Shown here: piece by piece, positions 1 to 18,000 of the stretch
Layout of the letters: each line of letters begins with the position of its first letter
Numbering within the stretch: the first letter of the stretch is position 1
Assembly: GCA_019914995.1 (NCBI GenBank)
Contig: CM034130.1
Span: forward strand, 7,316,001 to 7,380,000
DNA length: 64,000 nt
DNA from: Acanthochlamys bracteata
Lineage: Eukaryota > Streptophyta > Magnoliopsida > Pandanales > Velloziaceae
Direction of reading: 5' to 3'
Position numbers and translations under genes: made by a program
Notes under the pieces: generated by a model
What the model was told of the DNA's origin: nothing
Seen by the model: the letters and a program-made list of their open reading frames with translations, nothing else
Databases searched by the model: none

Positions 1-2381
1 TGATGATTATGCTAAGAGCTCCGAGAGGAGTAACCAAAATAGCTGGTGCAAATGCATAAGCCGCAAAATTTGCAATTTCTCCAACAATCACTGTCACATC
101 AAGAAGTATTAGTGGTAATCCCATTGCATTAAGGGAAATGCTCAAAAGAATAGCATTTTATAGATCTTCACTATTGGTTTTAGTGCACTAAGTACTACAA
201 GATCAGTCTCTCAGCTGAGAAAAACTATTTCCAAAATATGCGTTTCTGATGCTTCACGGAGAACCACACCACCCAAACTCAGGAGCTAAATGTAGCAAGA
301 ACTGAAACACCAAAAAATCTATAACCAAGAATTCCGACTTTGAAAACAATTTCTATACAGTTATTTATAGAGAAAACTAAGAAACTGGTGCTGCAATAAT
401 AACACCTATTGAAACAATTAAAATCACTTTAGAAAAGATAGATCCACAAAGTATTTGTTGAAGTACAATTTTTTGCCTGATTGAAACTAATTAAGTTCTA
501 TAAAGGGACACCACACATTTGTCAGAAACAAAGAGCTACATAACCAACTGAAATTTACTTGATCCAACAACAAGATAATCATAAGGATAGATGCAAATAT
601 AAAATTGTGACTACGAATAATCTACTCACTTGCAATCATGCCAGCCCACCAGAGAGGCTCATATAAGTAAGAGTAGCCTCCAACTCCTGTTACAAATAAG
701 AAAAATAAGGCCAGTAGAGTAGAAAACATGCATTTAGTTAGTAAATGCACTCATCTTCTGCAGTAATTTCAGATCAGAAAAAGAGTCAAGAACACAAATC
801 TGACATTTGAGACCAAAATAAGAGTAAAACCTCATAAAAATGATCATTTAACCCTTCCTTTTGGGCACACAGACCACAACATCACCCAAATGCTCCTGAA
901 GACAAATAATGCTCTATAAAGTCAAAACCATGACTCATTTGGTCTTTAACTAAAGAATTTCTGTTCCATCACATTTATCTAGTAATGTATGGATGCTTAC
1001 AGCAATTTTCCATATACGTTACTTCTTCACTGAAAGAAGAAGCTAAAGGAGAACACTGAATAACTCATACAAAGCCTGGTTGATGCTATTGACAAATTTC
1101 ATGGAAAGTGATTAGTTATACTATGTAAAGATAAAAAGCAATTTCAACAGCAATCCTAACCACATCACTATCCTCGAATACCAAGATGGGAATAAATTAC
1201 GCACAATCGCACATAGGAAAGGGTAGATAAAACTAGCAATGCTAATCTATTGGTGAATGCAGCTACCAAGCTGGTTGCAACCTGTCTATGAAATATTAAC
1301 TATTTGCAAAACCTAACAACAAAATACTATAGTTTTTCTTATCCCACAATACCCAGAGCTAGGACGTATTTCAGCTTGCTGCAAATATTCCCCCATAAGT
1401 ACACAAAACCTCTCTAAAACTATAGCTTCTAGCAGATCATCAAACCAAGAAACAACTTCTCAATTCATAGTTGGTCCACATTGTCCATTGCAATCACAGC
1501 TTCTCCGGAACTACTAAAATATGTAAATTTTTATCTTTCGCACTTCATATCTGACCAGATCCAGCTCATTCTCAAATCCGCTAGCTTTCATCAGCTTTCC
1601 AGTTGAAGTACGAGCACAATCTCTGACAAACTTGTCAGTCTGTAAATGCAGCTACCATATTTCAATGAAGATGCAACTTGAACTCATCTGGGAAAGAAAG
1701 AACAAGACAACAAAAAAAAGAAAAAAAAATCTACCCTGATAAAACCCAGTGTAATATCTATGAAACTTATGAAACTATTTCCAGTTCCAGAAACACAACA
1801 CTCTAAAGTCTCTTTCATCCACAATACCCAAAGTAATGCTTGATCAGCTTACAGCACATCTTCCTCCAATAGTACAGCAAAAGCTTTCTCAAACTATAAC
1901 AGCTACCAAATCACAAACAAGCAGAAACTTTATACACTAACTACTAATCAAAATTTCCTCAAAAAACACAGATTATGAAACCCAACACTTCATAAGCCAC
2001 ACTAGATCCAGCTCAATCTCAATTTAGCTAAATTTCATCAACTTCCCACTCAGCCACTGCTTATCAGAGTACAATCCCTGCAAATCAACCTCCAAAAGCT
2101 CAACAACTCCCAACTGGCACCACCAAGTATACCTAAAACCACCATACTTCAACCCAAACTCAAAATCAAACACTTAAAGAAGTCAAAATCCGACGAGATC
2201 TACCTGCTCGAACACCGGAAGTACCGGCCTTTTTCAATCCCTTCTTCTTAATGATAAAACTAGCACCAATAAACAAGCTAGACGATAACGCCAGAAGCAA
2301 TCCCTTGATGTTATCAGACGACATCCCACGGTAAGCCAACGACCAGCTCCCCGCCGCTCCCGATCCTCCTGCCGACTCCAT
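1..2381 (-). CDS. NIPA-type magnesium transporter, 5' part (partial)
   Basis: Probable magnesium transporter of the plant NIPA family, a multi-pass membrane protein. Exons read on the minus strand are 2204-2381, 630-686 and 1-90, and the gene continues beyond the left edge. Phases join exactly: exon 1 ends GCA-G, exon 2 opens GA-GTT, and exon 2 ends in A, completing ATG with exon 3. The start ATG (2379-2381) is followed by the family-typical [20 protein letters not shown] segment (first membrane helix) and the basic [11 protein letters not shown] turn. Exon 2 reads [18 protein letters not shown] and exon 3 reads [20 protein letters not shown], both strongly conserved in NIPA proteins. Intron 1 is about 1.5 kb. 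The 5' UTR probably lies in the CT-rich stretch 2382-2700. Family assignment is secure; the member is not. Confidence 0.92.
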
Positions 2382-3557
2382 TGTTCAATTCCTTCGACAA
2401 CTAATCAATCGCTCCCTTGTTACTTCTCCTCCGACGGCGCCGACCGTTGAATCATTGTCGGCAGCGTTGATTAACAGCTTTGAGTATTCTTCTTTCGATC
2501 TCTCATGAGAGATCTGAAGAGTGAATAAATCGAATCTAAGAAGGTGTCTTTAACTTGTGAAAAACCGGGGAGACTGGTGTCGGTGGTAATTATGAGAAGA
2601 TTGGAAGGGTAGGAGCAAAAATTGAAGGACAAAGCAAGGAGGGGAGAGAGAGGGGTTAAAAGTTTTTGTTTGCGTAGGTAAAGGTTCTTGCTTCGTTTCT
2701 AATCTTCTTCTTCTTCGACAGAATGATTTGAATAAAAAAAAGAAATTAAAAAAAAAAAAAAGAGAACAGAAAAGAATTTTTTATTTGTTATAATTAAAAA
2801 AGTAAGTACTCTGATTTATAACCTGTTTTGTTTCAATAAAACTAAGTAAGAGAAGAAAACAGAAAAAACAAGAACTGTCAAGAAGACGATACAGATGCAG
2901 AAACAAGAAGAAGCGCGTAGGAAGCACGTGTGAGAATGTGGTTCCTAAAACGGGTTAAATTTACCGTGGTTGGATCCGAAATAGATCACACGCTTTTTAG
3001 ATGCGTTTGGTTAAACGTTCTTCAGAAATATTTTTAAAATTTAAAATTTATATTTTTTAATAAATATTTTATAAAATTACTAAAATTTACAAAGAAAGTT
3101 ATATTAATAAATATTATTATTATTATTTTTAAATTAAAATACATTTATTAAAATAAATAAAATATTTTTAAAAGCACTTCTCTATCTTTTTTTTTGGACT
3201 AAGCGTTTGTTTTTATTTAGAGGCTTGTTTACATATTTTCTAAAATTTATTTTTTTAAACTCATTTTTAATATAAAAAATTAAAAAATATTTTTATTAAA
3301 ATTATTTTTAAAATTTAATTTTAAAATTTATTTATAATATAAAATAATTATAAAATTTATTTTATTAAATATTTTTAATTTTTAATTTTATTTTTAAAAC
3401 TCATTTTCAAAAAAAGTATATTTATGCTACAGTAAACACATCCTTAGAGGTACGGTTGATGGAAATTTGTTTGTAGTCCGTGATGCATGAGACTATTATA
3501 GATACTATGCTTTTTTAGGAGAAAAAATATAAAAATACTTTTTTTTGTTTGATTTTA

Positions 3558-3850
3558 AGCGTATTTTAAAATATGTAATTTTATTTTTTTAATCAAAATT
3601 ATAATTCTGAACAATTTATATATTTTATTTGTATAAAAAATTCAAAATTTTATTTTTATATACAGCACTTTTGTTCTAATTTTTCTATTTATATATTTTT
3701 TAATATAATTTTCTTTTTAATTTTTAACTTATTTTAAAAAATTATTACAATATAAAAATTAAATTTTACTTCTATTTATTTTTTTAAAATTTTTATATTT
3801 TATTTTTTATTTTTACAAAATTTAATTATGAATATTTAAAACACATGCTT
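3558..3850. repeat. MITE-like element, family B, copy 1
   Basis: An AT-rich, about 290-bp element, colinear by eye with 32799-33090. Both open with (A/G)GCGTRTYTTAAA followed by TAATTTTATTTTTTT. Both close with TTTTTACRAAATT and ATATTTAAAA, then a degraded terminal inverted repeat. No coding capacity. This copy has the more degraded ends, so its exact limits are uncertain. Confidence 0.45.
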
Positions 3851-3935
3851 CAGTGAAGCGGATTATATGGAACAAAACACGTTCAGCATGGTGATTGAGA
3901 GCACTACAGCAAAGAAAATAAAAAATCTTATTCAC

Positions 3936-4169
3936 AGCGTTTGGGATGATTATAAAAATTATTTGTTTGAAAAGAAAAATATTTTTATTTTATTTTGATA
4001 ACAAGTTTTATTTTTTTAATTTTAAAAGACTAATAAAAATAAATAATAATAAAACTATACAACGTAAAATTTTTTTATATCTTATAAATTTTATAAATTA
4101 TTATAAAAATTATTTAAAAATATAAATAGAAAAAAAATATTTTTTTTGAATGTGCTTTCAAACACGGCC
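3936..4169 (+). repeat. MITE-like element, family A
   Basis: An AT-rich block of about 230 bp bounded by 'gcgtttggga' at the left and 'gtgctttcaaacacg' at the right, which read as imperfect inverted ends. The interior follows a layout repeated throughout the window: an A/T stretch with TTTTTATTTTATTTT, then AATAAAAATAAATAATAATAAAA, a TTTTTTTATAT core, then a run of ATAAATTTTATAAA words. No coding capacity. Confidence 0.45.
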
Positions 4170-5094
4170 TTCGTACTGATGCATGTTAGGTTTTGAAAAA
4201 GTAACCAATTAATGAAGTTACGTAGCATTGACTTACAAACGAGCTACAGGAAGGTAGAAAACATAACATAAATAAATAATGATCTTCAACTTTGATTCTA
4301 AACTCCCAAAATTAAGAAGGTAAATAAGAACTGGTATTCATGAACATTTCCTACTCCAATAAAAGCTTCAACTGAAGTGGCACGGAAAAAGTTCATTCAT
4401 GCACATAATTAAGTCGCGATCCAGAGGTTGCTATATCAACTTCATTACAGACATTATTCTAACGGAAAAGAAAAGGACTGCTCAAATGCTCACACCTACT
4501 GAATAGATGAGAACTCTTACATCTTACACCCAATGCCTGATTTCCAGCATATCCAGTTCCTTATAAAAAGATCATGTGATTAGAGTTACAAATCCAGACC
4601 GGACTAAACAGAGAGATCCGTGGCTCGTCCACATGGCCTGAGATATGATCTGTCAGATTCGCGAACAGCAATATGATTAGATTGATCAGACCCGACAATA
4701 TAGGGCTGATTTTATCGACCCTTCCGCTCGATCATTGTTCTTGTTGAGCGAAAAATACCGTTGATTTAGTAAATATTGACAGTTAATCATATCAACTTAT
4801 AATTAAAAATATTTTTAATAATAAAAAATATTTATAAGTTATATATATCTTAATAAAACTTCAAAAATTTATTTGAAAATTTTATTATTTTATTATTTAT
4901 TTTTATATAAACTAAAAAATAAAATGAGTAAATATGTAGGGCCAGACTATTAAAATCATACCAGGATTGGCCCGATCTGAATGTGTCATTTGGCCCGGGC
5001 GAGTTTGATTGATCCGATTCGATCCGTCCATATTTACACCTCTATATGTGATAAAGGAGGACTCCAGTCTACAACTACATAGTTGGATGATATC

Positions 5095-5300
5095 TGTGTA
5101 TGTACAAAAAAAAATTTTACTAAAATAAAAAATATTTAAAAAATAATTTTTTTTAACTTAAAAGAATTAATAAAAAATAGATTATAATAAAATCTTACAA
5201 TATAAATTTTTTTATATTTTTTAAAATTTAAATAATTTTATATAATATTACAAAATATTTATTAAAAAAATATAAAATAAAAAGGAGCTTTCCAAACTCT
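5095..5300 (+). repeat. MITE-like element, family A
   Basis: Same internal order of AT-rich words as the copy at 3936-4169, ending in 'ggagctttccaaactc', a degraded version of that copy's right end. The left end is poorly preserved. Confidence 0.38.
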
Positions 5301-6589
5301 ACAGAACGCTTAGCGAAACAATGACTTAGGCTCTGTTTGAATAACTTAAAAATAACAATTTTTTTAAATTCAGGAATATTTTTTATGATTTATAAAAAAA
5401 TATTACAGTATTAGCTTCCAATGACGACACAATTCATTCATATTTTAGAAAATTTATTAAAGTACTGTGCATTTTTTTTCAATTTTGAAAAATTAAACTC
5501 TTGACATAGCATGCCATATGGTCTGTGTCAGTCAGCTAGAAGTGTGACGCTCAAAGTTGCCTTAGTAGAGACTTGCATGAGCTCAACAAGAAGATGAAAA
5601 ACAGTAACATATCCAGGTTGCACGAAATTTATATGCACATATGTCATTCTTCAATCAATTAGCTGTAAAATGAGAGTAAAATTAGCGAGATGTTTTACAT
5701 AACCTACAGCAATGGTCGTCTAAGGACTACTAAGGTACTAGACGGTGTAACAACCGACTTTGCCTCACTGATTTTTGTCTTAGGTTGTGGGGGTTTCTCT
5801 TGGCAACAGCGTTGGATCTATCCAGCCCGTCTAAATTCCTAGTATATATTATCTTGGCCAACTTTAATCATAGAACACTAAGATTCCTAACCCATTTCCA
5901 CTATTGGCTTAGTTTGCTAAGGCATTAGACTATCGTAACAACAACCCCACATGCAGTCCATCAACTCCGTGCCCAGCTTGCATTCTCATATCCAAAACTC
6001 TTGGTCATGAAACACTTCAAAAACCAAGCAGCAGTTACAGCTCCTCGTATCTTCCTAACAGCACTTTATCTTGTGATTTCAGTTTGCAATAGAAAAATGA
6101 ATGAAAAGTACATGCGCCTGGGTGTAATCTCTTAGGAAATCTGTCAGAAATTTTAGTTTGATCTCATAAGTCCAAATGCTGAAATCAACTTTTCAGGTTG
6201 AAGTTTTCAGCTTATTTATCTTGTTAAGCTGGACACTTCTAGAACATTGTCGAGAAATTGGCTTAGCATTAGCCTAAAATAAATATCCCAACAGTGTTTC
6301 AGCTAGTGGAACCACCATTAAAACCAAATACACCGAAAAAAGGAGGAATCCAAAATCAGGATGAGCTCATGATCGGAAAATCATTATACCAGATCCCACC
6401 AAAATTTAGAAATCGAGCTTTTCTTACTTGTTCACTTCAAAGAAGGGTTAGGTGGGAAAGCACCAACCGCCACAAACGTGATTGTGGCACCTATAAGATA
6501 GAACTTAAACTGATGCCATTCTCAGAACTGACTTTTCCATACCCTAATTGCAATGAGCTCAGATAAACAGTGAGAGCAAACCTGGCCTG

Positions 6590-8950: not shown

Positions 8951-11900
8951 ATGGTGTACGGACAAGTTGTGATCGGTCCACCAGGTTCAGGGAAGACGAC
9001 ATACTGCAATGGGATGTCTCAGTTTCTCAAGCTCATAGGCAGGTAATGTGAAAATTTTCATCAGTTCTTATTATATACGGAGAGAGAGCAATTTGAAGTT
9101 ATATGAGGTTAATCTGAACTTGCTATTTGTTGGAATTTGACTTTAATTTCATAGATTTAACAAGTTTGGATCCATTAAAAAATTTTCTGTCGGTTGAATT
9201 TCAATGGGTTTGACTGTGGAGTGAATGCTAGTTTGATTTTAATCATAAATAATACCATCAAAATGCTTTAAGATTTAAAAATGTTGGGAAACACTAAAAA
9301 TTCTTCCACTTGGTAGATTATTTAGACCTGATTAATCTCTGGATTGAATGGTCGTTTGATTTACTTAAATATGCTACAAGGAACCAGTTCAGTCTGATAT
9401 TACCTGCCCTTTTTGCGAACTTGTATTTTTGGGAAGCAAATCAGTTTAGGATGAAATCTAGTCTTCTGAGATGGTGCTTGTAAACCGTCGAGACTGGAAG
9501 ATGGATGTGCGAATTTAGAAATTCTGATTGGACCACATTAAGTTATTTATGTAGTACGCTTTTGTGGTGAACCTAATGTACATGAATACATGTAGTAAAT
9601 ATATTTTTCATTCATTGGTAAATACTTCTCTTACTCTTGCACTAACTTTACAGGGAAGCTTCCATTGTTTATGGTATTAATTTTGTCAACTGTAATGTCC
9701 ATTGCATGCTGCATTTTAAATTGAATGTTCATCTATGGTTATAGTATCTGCTGTTTCAAGCTTGGGTAGAAAATGTTGGGTGTTCAAATTTGACTTAGTA
9801 TGCAGGCATGAACCTCCTTCTGTGTTATCAGTTGTGGTTGAGTTTATTTAAGTAACTTAAGCTTCTAGTGAAGCTTCTACATGGGAATAATCAGTCATGT
9901 ACATTGGTTTGAGTATCTTATTTTATATAAAGTTCATGCTAATGGCTATAATATGACAAAAGAGATCTTTTTGTGTTTAAAATGTGCAGGAAAGTAGCAG
10001 TCATTAACTTGGATCCTGCAAATGACGCATTGCCGTATCCTTTAGCTTAATCCAGCATTCCCTGTTTGTTTTCCTGACTCTTTTATGACATGCACTGGGG
10101 GATTTTCTTAACTAAAGATTTGTTAAGATAGATATGAATGTGCTGCAAATATCGAGGAACTTGTCAAGCTTAGTGATGTAATGACGGAACACTCACTGGG
10201 GCCAAATGGAGGTGAATATTCTTTCTAGGGTGCTTTTGCGAGGTGTATATTGGTATTGCTGCACATGCATGTCACCACCATGAGATATGCATATGTGTTG
10301 CATACGCTTACTGTGTAGAGATTGATGCTTTGACACTGTGTTGCATGTAGGTCTTGTTTATTGTATGGATTACCTAGAGAAGAACATCGATTGGTTGCAG
10401 TCCAAGTTGCAGCCTCTTGTCAAGGGTGAGTATCAACATTCCTTCAACTGTGCTTGACCTTTTGTTGGTCTTGGGAACGTGGTCCATGGAAATTGATACA
10501 AATGTGTGTTATGTAGGACATGGACAGTCGCTTTCTTGCTAATATTAGAATGCTACTTTCATCACTAACTTTCTTGTAAAGATACTGTTTTTTGTTAATT
10601 ACGGAGTTTTCCTTCAGAGTTCTTCATTTGTATGTGACACTTAATTAGCTTTGACTGTGAAATTTTTGAAGGGACCTGTTGTCGTAAGTCCTTGTATTGA
10701 TAGTCCTGTTTTAAGTTTTTCAATGTTTAACTGCTTTCTAATCTTGCAGATCACTATTTTCTTTTTGATTTTCCTGGCCAAGTTGAACTCTTCTTTCTTC
10801 ATTCTAATGCAAAGAACGTTATATCTAAACTTGTCAAAAAGATGAATCTGAGGGTATGCAGCTGTTTTATTCCTCTATCAAATGCATGACCACAATTACA
10901 TGGTTGGTCTTCTTCTTGTTATTGCTCCTTAAACATTTGTTTGTCACACCTTTCAGTTGAGTGCTATTCACTTGGTTGATGCACATCTGTGCTGTGAACC
11001 TGGAAAATACGTCAGTGCATTGCTGCTCTCACTGTCTACAATGCTACATCTGGAACTACCCCATATCAATGTATTGTCAAAGATTGATCTTATTGAGAGC
11101 TATGGCACATTAGGTGTGTGCACATGTTACTTGCATTTGTTAATTACTTTCAGCAAGGATTTCTTTTTGACGTAAGTGTCTCTGATGCAGCTTATAACCT
11201 TGATTTTTATACCGATGTTCAAGACTTGTCATACTTACAGTACCATCTAGACCAAGATCCGAGATCAGCTAAATACAGGTAGTTTTCTTATTGAGGCTAG
11301 ATGTTACATATCCAAGAGTTGCTGGCTGCCTGCTTTTTTAGACTTTGAATTATTTGTTTTAAGCTTTCATTATCAATTATTTCTTGGATTACATTTGGGC
11401 ATCCTTATTACACTATCTTATGTGATGTCCTATGTTATGCTTGTGCGCGCATGTCACTGAGCTATTGCCTTCGTTGAATCATATGAATTTTAGCTTAGCT
11501 TGGGGCAAGTTTCCTTACTCTGATGATTGTAGTTTGGAAGACCAACGGTTGTATTTGGTTTTGAAGTATAAGTCAGGCTGTAATTGTATATAATATTAGG
11601 AACTTTGTGCCAGATTATTTTGAAAGAAGAAACTCTATCATGTCTGAGCCCCTTGTTTGCAGAAAACTGACAGAAGAGCTATGCAAGGTCATTGAAGATT
11701 ATGGCATAGTAAATTTTACCACGCTAGACATTCAGGCAATCCCTTCACTCTTTCGTCAAAAAACATCCCTTTCTTTGTGGATCTGTTACTTGCGATCTGT
11801 TATTTACTGTTAACATAATCAATGTCACCTTTCAGGATAAAGAGAGTGTTGGAAACCTCGTAAAGCTGATTGATAAAAGCAACGGCTACATCTTTTCGGG

Positions 11901-12868
11901 CATAGATGGGAGTGTTGTGGAATTCAGTAAAATTGCTGCAGCACCTTTTGACTGGGATTACTATAGATATCCTTGGGTTTTGTCTTAGCCCTACAACTTT
12001 TAATTCAAAATCACCATGCTGTCTTTAGTTGTGATTACCATCACTTAAAGAGTATTTTTTGCTTGATCATTATTCTTTTCTACACTATTAAGTAGCATAA
12101 CAGCATCAATTATTATTTGCTAGTTTCCGGTTAGACCATTTTGAGACAAATTTTAATGATGTTGGCTAGTTTCTATATCATTTTGCAATCAAATTCACTA
12201 ATTTCAGATTATAAGCCCTTCATCAAGTAGAAATATGTTCCTGTACCCTTGGTGGAAGAAAATAAGCAAGTGAATAAGCAAATGTTGTATTTTCAAGATT
12301 TATCAAATTCAAATCAACACTAGTCTTTCAACTGTTGAGAGGCAAAGCACATAACAGTTCATGCAACAGTGATGACCGTTATGACTCTCCCTAGTATTTG
12401 CAGCACTACAAAAATTATTACTTCTCCACATCTGTTGTTCATGGAGTACTTCAAATATATTATATATTCAACTTCTGCATTAACGTCATACGTAGAGGAA
12501 TTACTCTAGTCCATCAAGAATGTAAATGATGGTTGCTTAGGTAGTGTAGGTTTTTTTGTATTCATGGGGACTAAAGTCAAAGTTGCACCTGAAATAATAT
12601 TAGGTTTCGCTTCTAGGTAAGATATTAGGTTTTGCTTCTAGGTAAGATATTAGGTTGCTTCTATGTATGAGTAATGCTCTATTCATGTATTGAATGTCCT
12701 AAATTTCGGGTGTTTAACATGCCTATAGTTTTGTGTAATGAGCACTGTGGTAGGGAGACTTGAATCTTCTCATTCATCAAGCAGTTCTCTTTCCTTAACA
12801 TTTGGTTTACAACAGCAGCTGTGCAGGAGAAGTATATGAAGGATGATGAAATTATGAAGGATCCATAG
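8951..12868 (+). CDS. QQT1: GPN-loop GTPase 2 (QQT1-type)
   Basis: A small GTPase of the GPN family. In yeast and animals GPN2 assists cytoplasmic assembly and nuclear import of RNA polymerase II, and the plant homologue QUATRE-QUART1 is needed for early embryo divisions. Exons: 8951-9042, 9990-10034, 10132-10211, 10351-10425, 10750-10853, 10957-11113, 11191-11278, 11663-11735, 11836-11966, 12811-12868. They sum to 903 nt, a 300-aa product, the usual GPN2 length, with every phase consistent. Motifs: P-loop GPPGSGKTT at residues 9-17, the diagnostic GPN triplet at 69-71, G3 DFPGQ at 104-108 and G4 SKID at 173-176. The C terminus ends in a charged [13 protein letters not shown]. Introns 2 and 9 carry U12-type signals and intron 8 is GC-AG; these are described separately. 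The GPN triplet and C terminus favour GPN2 over GPN1 or GPN3. Confidence 0.95.
10035..10131 (+). other. Candidate U12-type GT-AG intron (GPN2 intron 2)
   Basis: This 97-bp intron begins GTATCCTTT, identical to the U12 5' splice-site consensus. It carries TTTTCTTAACT at 10103-10113, close to the U12 branch site TTCCTTAAC, with the branch A about 20 nt from the terminal AG. Removing it restores [11 protein letters not shown] across the junction, as conserved in GPN2 proteins. Confidence 0.82.
11736..11835 (+). other. GC-AG intron (GPN2 intron 8)
   Basis: This 100-bp intron begins CAG|GCAATC and ends TTTCAG|GAT. Reading frame and family sequence ([13 protein letters not shown]) leave no room for a nearby GT donor, so a GC donor is the simplest reading. 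Confidence 0.7.
11967..12810 (+). other. Candidate U12-type AT-AC intron (GPN2 intron 9)
   Basis: This 844-bp intron opens with ATATCCTTGG (U12 AT-AC consensus ATATCCTT). It contains a perfect U12 branch site TTCCTTAAC at 12791-12799 and ends TTTGGTTTAC. The branch A lies about 12 nt from the terminal AC. The exons then join as [18 protein letters not shown], the conserved GPN2 C terminus. No GT-AG pair in this stretch gives that frame. It also contains a 25-bp tandem repeat. Confidence 0.88.
12597..12666 (+). repeat. 25-bp tandem repeat inside the AT-AC intron
   Basis: About 2.7 copies of a 25-bp unit begin at 12597, 12622 and 12647. Each starts atattaggtt and the first two end ttctaggtaag. 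Copies differ by one substitution or a short deletion. The units contain a GGTAAG donor-like hexamer. Confidence 0.8.
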
Positions 12869-14482: not shown

Positions 14483-14494
14483 TTCTCCCCCACC
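14483..14494 (-). other. Polypurine tract of the chromovirus
   Basis: On the minus strand this reads GGTGGGGGAGAA directly upstream of the 3' LTR, the position and composition expected of the plus-strand primer. It abuts the pol stop codon at 14494-14496. Confidence 0.85.
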
Positions 14495-17400
14495 TATTCC
14501 GCGATGTCCTCAGCGCAATGAGATGCTTTGGCGGAATTTTTATATCTTTGGCTGAAATTGCCATAAGTGAGTTCGTGCTCCCAACTTGCCTCACTATCGG
14601 GTTGTCCTCTCCACTTTACCAAGTACTCCGTGTAGCTTGGATGGGAATCACGTCGTGGAATAACTCGATGGGCCAAATTTTCCTCCACATCTCGTTCTTG
14701 TGAAGTGGCGATGGAGGTGGGAGCTCTTGAGGATTCACTTCTAATTGGATCCTCTTTATCGGCATGGTATGGCTTCAAGAGGCTAACGTGAAATACCGGA
14801 TGAATTTCTAAATGTGAAGATAACCTTATCCGGTAAGCCATCTTGCCGATCCTCTTCTTAATGGGAAATGGTTTTTCATACCTCCGTATAAGACCTCTAT
14901 GTAGCTTTTGTAGATGATGAAATGTGCGGGCTTGATGGGGAAGGAGTTTTACCATGACTAAGTCTTCTACGTTGAATTCTTGGTGCCTTCGTTTGTGGTC
15001 CACCCATTTCTTCATCTTCTTTGTTACCTTTGCCAAGTAGGATCGAGCAAGTTTCGCCTCCTCTTGCCAGCCTTTGGCAAACTTGTATGCCGATGGACTC
15101 TTCCCCTTGTATCCAGTGGCAATGGTGTGTGGAGTCATGGGTTGTTGTCCTTGCACCAGCTCAAATAGATTTGTCCCAATTGACTCGCTTTTTTGTAAGT
15201 TATACGAGAATTGGGCGATATCCAGCAATCTTACCCAATCTCGTTGGTTGGCACTTACGTAATGTCTCAAATATACCTCCAACAAGGCATTGACTCTTTC
15301 GGTTTGGCCATCGATTTGTGGGTGGAAGCTAGTGGAGAAGTTGAGCTTGGATCCCAATATCTTGAATAACTCCGTCCAAAATCTCCTGATGAATCGGGTG
15401 TCGCGATCGCTTATAATGGTTTGTGGAATTCTCCAATATTTTACCACATGCAGAAAGAATAGTCGCACCGCATCTTCAGCATTGAACTTGGTTGGTACGG
15501 GGATAGATACTCCATATTTACTGAAGCAATCTACCACGACCATAATATTACCACATCTCTTAGATTTTGGTAATCCTATAATGAAGTCCATAGAGACACT
15601 TTCCCATGGTCTCTCGGGAATAGGCAAAGGTTCCAATAGACCTGCTGGACGGTGTTGGTCTATCTTGTCTTGTTGGCATACAAGACAAGTCTTCACATAG
15701 AGCATAATATCGTCCTTCATTTGTGGCCAATAGTATGCATCTTCTACAAGGGCTATCGTTCGATGCATACCTGGATGTCCTACCCATTTGGAGTCGTGGC
15801 ATTCCTTGATGATCTCCTTCCTCAAGCCTCCCCATTTCGGTACGTATAAGCGTCCCCCTTTGGTAGTGAGTACGTCATCATCTAGCCAAAACTTGCGGGT
15901 CTTGCCTTGACTTGCAAGTTCTTTTAGTTGTTTAGCTTGTGGGTCATACTCTATCCCTTCCTTAATGCGCTCCACCAAAGGAAATAATGGTTGGGTAATG
16001 GCAGCTAGTTCAGCTTTCCTGCTTAATGCATCGGCTACCAAGTTGGCCTTTCCAGATTTATACTCTATGGTGAAGTCGAACTCTGTCAAAAATTCTTGCC
16101 ACCTAGCTTGCTTAGGGGATAGCTTCTTTTGGTTGAGGAAATAGCTGATGGCCATGTTGTCCGTCTTGACAATAAACTTAGAGCCCAACAAGTAATGCCT
16201 CCAAGTTCTCAAACAATGCACCGCTGCGGTCATCTCCTTTTCTTGGACCGTGTGGCGACGCTCGGTGTCGTTGAGCTTTCGGCTCTCATAGGCAATAGGA
16301 TGACCATCCTGCATCAACACACCACCAATTGCAAAATCAGAAGCATCTGTGTGTACCTCATAACTCTTGGTGTGATCCGGGAGGGCCAACACGGGTTCTT
16401 CCATCACAGCTTTCTTTAGTGCTTCGAATGCTTCTTGGCACTTGGTATTTCAATCCCACGTGCTGTTCTTTTTGAGAAGATCGATTAATAAGGCTGCTAT
16501 GGAGGAGTAACTCCGGATAAACCGCCTATAGTAGTTGACTAAACCCAAGAAGGATCTCAACTCAGGTACCTTCTTTAGCGGTTCCCAATCCTGGGTTGCC
16601 TTTACCTTAGTCTTGTCCATACGAAGCATTCCTTTACCAATAATATGCCCCAAGAATGTGACTTCCTGTTGAGCAAAAGCACACTTTTCTTTCTTCACAT
16701 ATAACTCATTCTCTCTTAGGATTTGGAAGACTTGGTGTAAATGTTGAACATGTTCTTGTAGTGTTTTACTATACACTACAATGTCGTCCAAATATACTAC
16801 AACAAACTGATCCAAGAATCTTTGGAAGACTTTGTTCATAAGTGTGCAAAATGTGGCCGGGGAATTTGTTAATCCAAAGGGCATGACCAAAAATTCGAAT
16901 GAGCCATACCGATGACACATGCTGTTTTAGGCTCATCTCTTCGGCAATCCTTACTTGGTAGTAGCCCGACCTCAAGTCCAACTTTGAGAACCAACGTGCT
17001 TCTCCCAATTGATCAAATAAGTCCGCGATCAATGGGATTGGATACTTGTTCTTGACTGTGATCTTGTTGAGCGCCCGATAATCTACACATAGTCGGAGAG
17101 ACCCATCATGCTTCTTCTGGAACAGCACGGGTGCACCATAAGGAGCCTTTGACGGCTGGATGTATTCTGTGTCCAACAATTTCTTTAGTTGCCGTCTCAA
17201 CTCTTCTAGTTCCGACAGAGCCATCCGATAAGGTACTGCAGCAGGAGGCTTTGTGCCAGGTTCCAACTCGATGTGGTGATCCACCTCCCTTTTTGGTGGC
17301 AATTTTTTTGGCAATTCCGACGGCATAACATCCTTGAACTCTTCAAGGACCTCCTTGATTTTCCCTGGCAGTTCGATCGAGTGGGTCGGTCCTTCCTCCT

Positions 17401-18000
17401 TAAATGCGGCCAGAAAAGTAGGTTGTGCCTTCTTGACGTCCTTACAAAGTTGCATGGCAGAAATGTTTTTAGTTTGAAAGCTTATTTCTCGCGATAAAAG
17501 TACCATACAAGTATTCCCTTCTTCCAAAATACACAGTGTTGGCAAAGGGAATAGGTACGGCCTCTACATGATCCATAAACTCTATACAAAGAACTATAGA
17601 ATAATCGTCCATAGGCACAATGGAAAAGTCCATAAGGCCAGACCACTCACCTAGGCAAGCCTTCACTCCATGAGCAACACCCCAAAATTGATTTGGGCTC
17701 AGAGTTTACCGCCTTAAGCCATCCTTACCTCTTCTCATACCGGATACCGAGCTTTTTAGCCTATTTCTCCTCGAGGAAGTTGTGGGTAGCCTCCATGTCC
17801 ACCAAGGCGCGGACCTCGTGTCCACCGATTTTGGTCATCACGTATAGTCGCCCCTTCTCCTCGCGCTTCGGTATCTCGACTTTGGCTTTGACGGCATTGA
17901 GGATTTGCAAAGAGCCCATCTTTGTTTCCTCGTGTGTTGGTGTTTCACTTGACTCGATCAATGCCGAGAGTTTGCTTCGCTTTGGACATTCTCTTACCAT
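14494..18000 (-). pseudogene. Chromovirus pol: protease, RT, RNase H, integrase, chromodomain (broken)
   Basis: The longest intact frame (14494-16407) holds RNase H (HTDASDFAIGGVL, conserved Asp present), the integrase HHCC zinc finger (C-LVC pair), the DDE core (MDFIIGLPKS, IISDRDTRF) and a C-terminal chromodomain (EYLVKWRG...SEASWE). The reverse transcriptase lies at 16450-17545 with the catalytic YLDD. Breaks seen: a TGA at 16450-16452 between RT and RNase H, a frame change near 16920 inside RT, and further breaks upstream of 17545. The aspartic protease (17761-18000) keeps the active-site Asp but reads DMEAT where family members read D-S/T-G-A-T, so it should be inactive. A zinc knuckle C-x2-C-x4-H-x4-C spans about 17985-18027. 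Confidence 0.9.

Follow-up and report, generated by a model that had tools for sequence, protein, structure and literature searches.

The 64,000-nucleotide stretch of Acanthochlamys bracteata DNA that was analysed (the window, to which all coordinates refer unless otherwise specified) carries at 8951-12868, on the plus strand, a ten-exon gene whose open frame encodes a protein of 300 residues. Exon 1 (8951-9042) contains the start codon and the G1 motif GPPGSGKT, and was placed by the frame and by the match of its product to PF03029. The frame likewise defined exon 2 (9990-10034, ending with LDPANDALP in phase 2), exon 3 (10132-10211), exon 4 (10351-10425, the GPNGG motif spanning the exon 3-4 join), exon 5 (10750-10853), exon 6 (10957-11113), exon 7 (11191-11278), exon 8 (11663-11735) and exon 9 (11836-11966, ending with DWDYYR in phase 2). 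Exon 10 (12811-12868) encodes the last 18 residues and the stop codon, and has a homologous exon in a pseudogene described below. The junctions 10034/10132 and 11966/12811, proposed in a preliminary description of this DNA, are both present in this model. Starting about 1.6 kb downstream of the gene, at 14494-17545 on the minus strand, are open frames that by eye resemble the polyprotein of a retrotransposon, with reverse transcriptase, RNase H and integrase.

The product carries both the GPPGSGKT (G1) and the GPNGG (GPN) motifs and matches PF03029 (ATP_bind_1) over residues 7-255 (E 3.5e-77, 259.9 bits for a cut-off of 27). Its five PDB matches are chains of GPN-loop GTPases 3 and 1, together with archaeal proteins named only GTPase or ATP(GTP)-binding; no GPN2 chain is among the five. 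An NCBIfam search of the product returned prokaryote GTPase models only, all under their cut-offs, and no homolog was confirmed in viral and prokaryote contigs. Since a GPN1-like and a GPN3-like gene sit elsewhere in the genome, the gene fits, by exclusion, the GPN-loop GTPase GPN2 (QQT1). What is known of the plant GPN2 protein also speaks for this probable identification.

The consensus sequences of U12-type introns used for scoring are RTATCCTTT for the donor and TTCCTTRAC for the branch site. The same scoring, for U12 donor, U12 branch and U2 donor, was applied to all nine introns of GPN2. Intron 2 (10035-10131, plus strand, 97 nt, phase 2) has GT-AG ends, a 9/9 donor (GTATCCTTT) and an 8/9 branch site (TTTCTTAAC, 10104-10112), the last A of which lies 20 nt from the intron end. 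Intron 9 (11967-12810, plus strand, 844 nt, phase 2) has AT-AC ends, an 8/9 donor (ATATCCTTG) and a 9/9 branch site (TTCCTTAAC, 12791-12799), whose last A precedes the end of the intron by 12 nt; the perfect branch site and the AC end announced in the preliminary description are thus there. As U2 donors the same two sites reach only 3/8 and 4/8, respectively, so that the U12 versus U2 comparison proposed in that description favours the U12 class for both. In the seven other introns, the U12 donor score is 3-5/9, the best branch score 5-7/9 and the U2 donor score 5-6/8. Introns 2 and 9 stand cleanly clear of these seven on both U12 motifs, and are the only introns of the nine with U12 signals. 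Intron 2 has no polypyrimidine tract: 8 of the 20 nucleotides before its end are pyrimidines, the fewest among the nine introns. Intron 9 has 15 of 20, a count that takes in part of the branch motif and that equals the highest value among the major introns of GPN2. Compared with the optimal branch-to-end distance of 11-13 nt given in the accessible text of PMC3584512, that of intron 9 falls within the range and that of intron 2 exceeds it. By frame and motif scores, intron 8 (11736-11835, plus strand) is a U2-type GC-AG intron, so that GPN2 appears to hold four kinds of introns: U2 GT-AG, U2 GC-AG, U12 GT-AG and U12 AT-AC.

All in-frame joins of exons 2 and 3 were sought with GT-AG or GC-AG ends, among donors at 9995-10110 and acceptors at 10090-10150. 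The join 10035-10131 is the sole in-frame GT-AG solution, and the one other in-frame join starts with the GC at 10032 and uses the same acceptor. Across the intron 2 join, the protein aligns without a gap with other GPN proteins, including archaeal ones, a stretch of 13 residues standing against NLDTGVKELPYEP. Retention of intron 2 leads to a stop after 50 residues. Two AGs, at 10117 and 10127, come before the in-frame one at 10131 and are thus closer to the branch site; use of 10127 as the acceptor would shift the frame by 4, and a leaky 3' site is possible.

A second copy of the gene is informative for intron 9. The locus L028 (contig C3, minus strand, about 1761-5760 of the reverse complement) is a decayed GPN2 duplicate in which the later introns are recognisable; exons 2-4 were not found in it. 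A stop in exon 1, with more stops and frameshifts downstream, marks it as a GPN2 pseudogene. At the intron 9 junction it keeps CTTAAC, then an AC ending 12 nt past the last A, then the exon 10 homolog in register, while the donor has decayed to ATTTCCTTCC. Because branch core, spacing and AC are all kept, intron 9 probably predates the duplication. The GC at the donor of intron 8 is also found in the pseudogene. Inspection by eye also showed a unit of some 25 nt (GATATTAGGTTT..GCTTCTAGGTAA) repeated as three near-copies within intron 9 of GPN2, at about 12595-12670; the pseudogene seemingly has one.

The frame is less restrictive at intron 9 than at intron 2. Among donors at 11840-12100 and acceptors at 12500-12835, 28 GT/GC-AG joins and 8 AT-AC joins of exons 9 and 10 are in frame. 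Only the AT at 11967, combined with the AC at 12810 or at 12813, neither loses exon 9 residues nor adds intron sequence. The AC at 12813 is likewise in frame and yields a product of 299 residues; 12810 is preferred because the pseudogene has GC where 12813 needs AC, with its exon 10 homolog in register, a placement suggested by this one paralog. The claim that both introns are needed to keep the frame therefore holds exactly for intron 2, and has to be softened for intron 9, which has other, inferior, in-frame joins. These joins leave room for another reading, in which intron 2 is U12-type and the last intron is either removed by the major spliceosome at GT-AG or GC-AG sites or normally retained, giving another C-terminus. 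Retention is indeed compatible with an open frame: intron 9 is located 18 codons upstream of the stop, and the retained form would have 288 residues, the last 18 being swapped for 6 and the PF03029 domain remaining whole. However, all 28 GT/GC-AG joins alter the protein by loss of exon 9 residues or gain of intron sequence, and the donor nearest to the end of exon 9, GTTTTGTCT at 11977, is by eye a poor U2 site. The AT-AC join, in contrast, combines a near-perfect donor, a perfect branch site and a suitable branch-to-end distance, of which the pseudogene retains the branch core, the spacing and the AC. We consider a non-U12 fate of intron 9 most unlikely.

The U12 motifs were compared with chance expectation. 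On the plus strand of the window, 24 of the 9007 GT/AT dinucleotides reach at least 8/9 as a U12 donor, and for 36 of the 6911 AG/AC dinucleotides a branch motif scoring at least 8/9 lies 8-24 nt upstream. If the two are independent, a joint probability of about 1.4e-5 follows for each intron, these counts including the two real introns. On both strands of the window, RTATCCTT occurs 9 times for 6.55 expected and TTYCTTAAC 6 times for 2.78 expected. Two patterns combining a donor and a branch motif 45-75 nt apart, searched in the 195.5 Mb covered by the genome-wide searches, showed no excess over reversed controls (1 versus 1 and 6 versus 7 matches). Such short-range motif pairs were dropped as a proof of U12 class, as the controls gave as many matches. 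In conclusion, the motifs alone are not rare, and what pins down the sites is the coding frame. That introns 2 and 9 are U2-type and match both U12 motifs by chance, a reading to which the frequency of RTATCCTT in the window and the lack of genome-wide excess lend some credit, is extremely improbable, given the low joint chance under independence at sites set by the frame, the AT-AC ends with a C at +5, which are not U2-like, the low U2 donor matches of both introns, and the U12 dependence established experimentally for the Arabidopsis counterpart in the published text consulted (see below).

Genes for minor-spliceosome RNAs were searched in the genome with Rfam models. Matches over the cut-off were obtained for U12 (two, 92.9 and 73.4 bits), U11 (one, 77 bits) and U6atac (four, 97 to 37.2 bits); the U4atac model gave no genome match, a result that does not show absence. 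The sequence GTAAGGAAA, present in both U12 genes, pairs 9/9 with the branch sites of introns 2 and 9, one A being bulged; one of the nine pairs formed with intron 2 is a G-U. With G-U pairs allowed, the donors of introns 2 and 9 form pairing runs of 7 and 6 with U11, and of 6 and 5 with U6atac, respectively. For the intron 9 donor, an unexpected register with U11 has more total pairs (7 versus 6) in shorter runs.

Motif scores, frame, snRNA pairing and, for intron 9, the pseudogene agree on one GT-AG and one AT-AC U12-type intron in GPN2, as had been proposed from the letters of the sequence. We therefore hold it very probable that the GPN2 (QQT1) gene entrusts seven introns to the major spliceosome, and introns 2 and 9 to the minor one. 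Removal of the two introns by the minor spliceosome, as predicted from these features, would proceed as follows. The donors GTATCCTT and ATATCCTT would be read by U11, then by U6atac; U12 would pair with both branch sites, leaving one A bulged out; intron 2 would leave by GT-AG and intron 9 by AT-AC. Without minor splicing no functional GPN2 would be made, since intron 2 lies inside the part of the gene that encodes the nucleotide-binding domain; intron 9 would govern only the last 18 residues. The predicted dependence is thus strong for intron 2 and weaker for intron 9.

A U12-type intron is also predicted in the GPN3 gene of the same genome. This gene (locus L029, minus strand) has nine exons and encodes a protein of 267 residues, which aligns with the GPN-loop GTPase 3 chain 9t5j_C (E 8.7e-89) with no gap at the join of the third intron. 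Intron 3 (3042-3398 of the L029 reverse complement, that is C5:2031603-2031959, minus strand) is of GT-AG type; it begins with GTATCCTTTG, has the same donor as GPN2 intron 2 (GTATCCTTT), and carries the branch site TTCCTTAAG 11 nt upstream of its AG end, as counted by eye. The possibility that the U12-type introns in the two genes occupy homologous positions was rejected, as a comparison of the proteins by eye shows different sites: the intron lies within the P of LPYEC in GPN2 and within the E of CMEYLED in GPN3. RTATCCTT is absent from the gene strand of the 7001-base locus L030, which alignment alone suggests to be GPN1-like.

Minor splicing of this gene has been studied in Arabidopsis, and we refer here to the accessible portions of the papers cited. 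QQT1 (At5g22370) is described as an indispensable U12-intron gene, the mis-splicing of which tracks the severity of the 31k mutant, and QQT1 expression rescues that mutant (PMC5853960). QQT1 is also mis-spliced in u11-48k plants (PMC4892727), named among the U12 genes needing 31K (PMC3422263) and cited as a U12-intron gene (PMC5932401). The gene described here resembles Arabidopsis QQT1, the same family member by name, which is embryo-essential and whose U12 splicing is impaired in the U11/U12-31K and U11-48K mutants. It differs in that the Arabidopsis texts speak of 'the U12 intron', which they do not specify, whereas two are present here, one of each subtype. GPN-loop GTPases are listed as 100% minor-intron-containing genes, with the species unnamed and no positions given in the text available (PMC6865273); in the present genome, GPN2 has two U12-type introns and GPN3 one. 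The literature searched contained no statement in its accessible text that QQT1 has two U12 introns, although an earlier listing is possible, and the accessible parts of PMC2831892, PMC2846911, PMC10639083 and PMC5932401 say nothing of two U12 introns in GPN2. The same search returned no paper joining GPN2 under that name with a U12-type intron, nor GPN3 with a minor intron.

It had been suggested that two U12 introns in one gene are unusual. This is overstated: in the passages available, U12 introns were significantly clustered in the same genes in 21 of the 21 genomes examined (PMC7367187), about 50 human genes have two U12 introns (PMC3584512), and GPN-loop GTPases are all listed as minor-intron genes. 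AT-AC introns represent 26% of Arabidopsis U12 introns (PMC7367187). Genes with two U12 introns are a known class, from which GPN2 differs here by mixing the GT-AG and AT-AC subtypes. The further suggestion that an essential GTPase would depend on minor splicing finds support in the Arabidopsis work on QQT1, by analogy with which a physiological dependence may be expected here; the need would be unequal, as retention of intron 9 leaves a protein of 288 residues. As for the function ascribed to this GTPase, PMC6748027 supports the involvement of the GPN family in assembling polymerase, but the role proposed for QQT1 in PMC5853960 is in chloroplast protein transport, as far as the consulted text of both goes.

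The apparent two-fold need of GPN2 for minor splicing is a real feature, yet largely expected, because such a need has already been described for the Arabidopsis gene; dependence through a U12 intron is established in that species. What appears new, judging from the DNA, is the presence of both subtypes together, the peripheral AT-AC intron, and the U12-type intron in GPN3. A broader scenario, which we regard as very unlikely, is that the assembly of RNA polymerase II reports on the health of the minor spliceosome through the minor introns in GPN2 and GPN3, and that AT-AC retention is regulated to produce the 288-residue variant. If it were true, production of GPN2 would require the G-type as well as the A-type branch of minor splicing, the 288-residue form would gain a different C-terminus with its GTPase domain untouched, and the circuit linking assembly and minor splicing would close on itself, the minor snRNAs being products of the polymerase. 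CENATAC is selective for AT-AN introns in human cells, according to the portion of PMC8280824 available, and whether factors of this type act on GPN2 becomes a testable question. Similarly, with QQT1 rescuing the 31k mutant and GPN2 carrying two U12 subtypes, it becomes testable which intron limits growth. The present results show which plant GPN2 introns could be weak points in minor-spliceosome mutants, in which GPN3 may be affected too.
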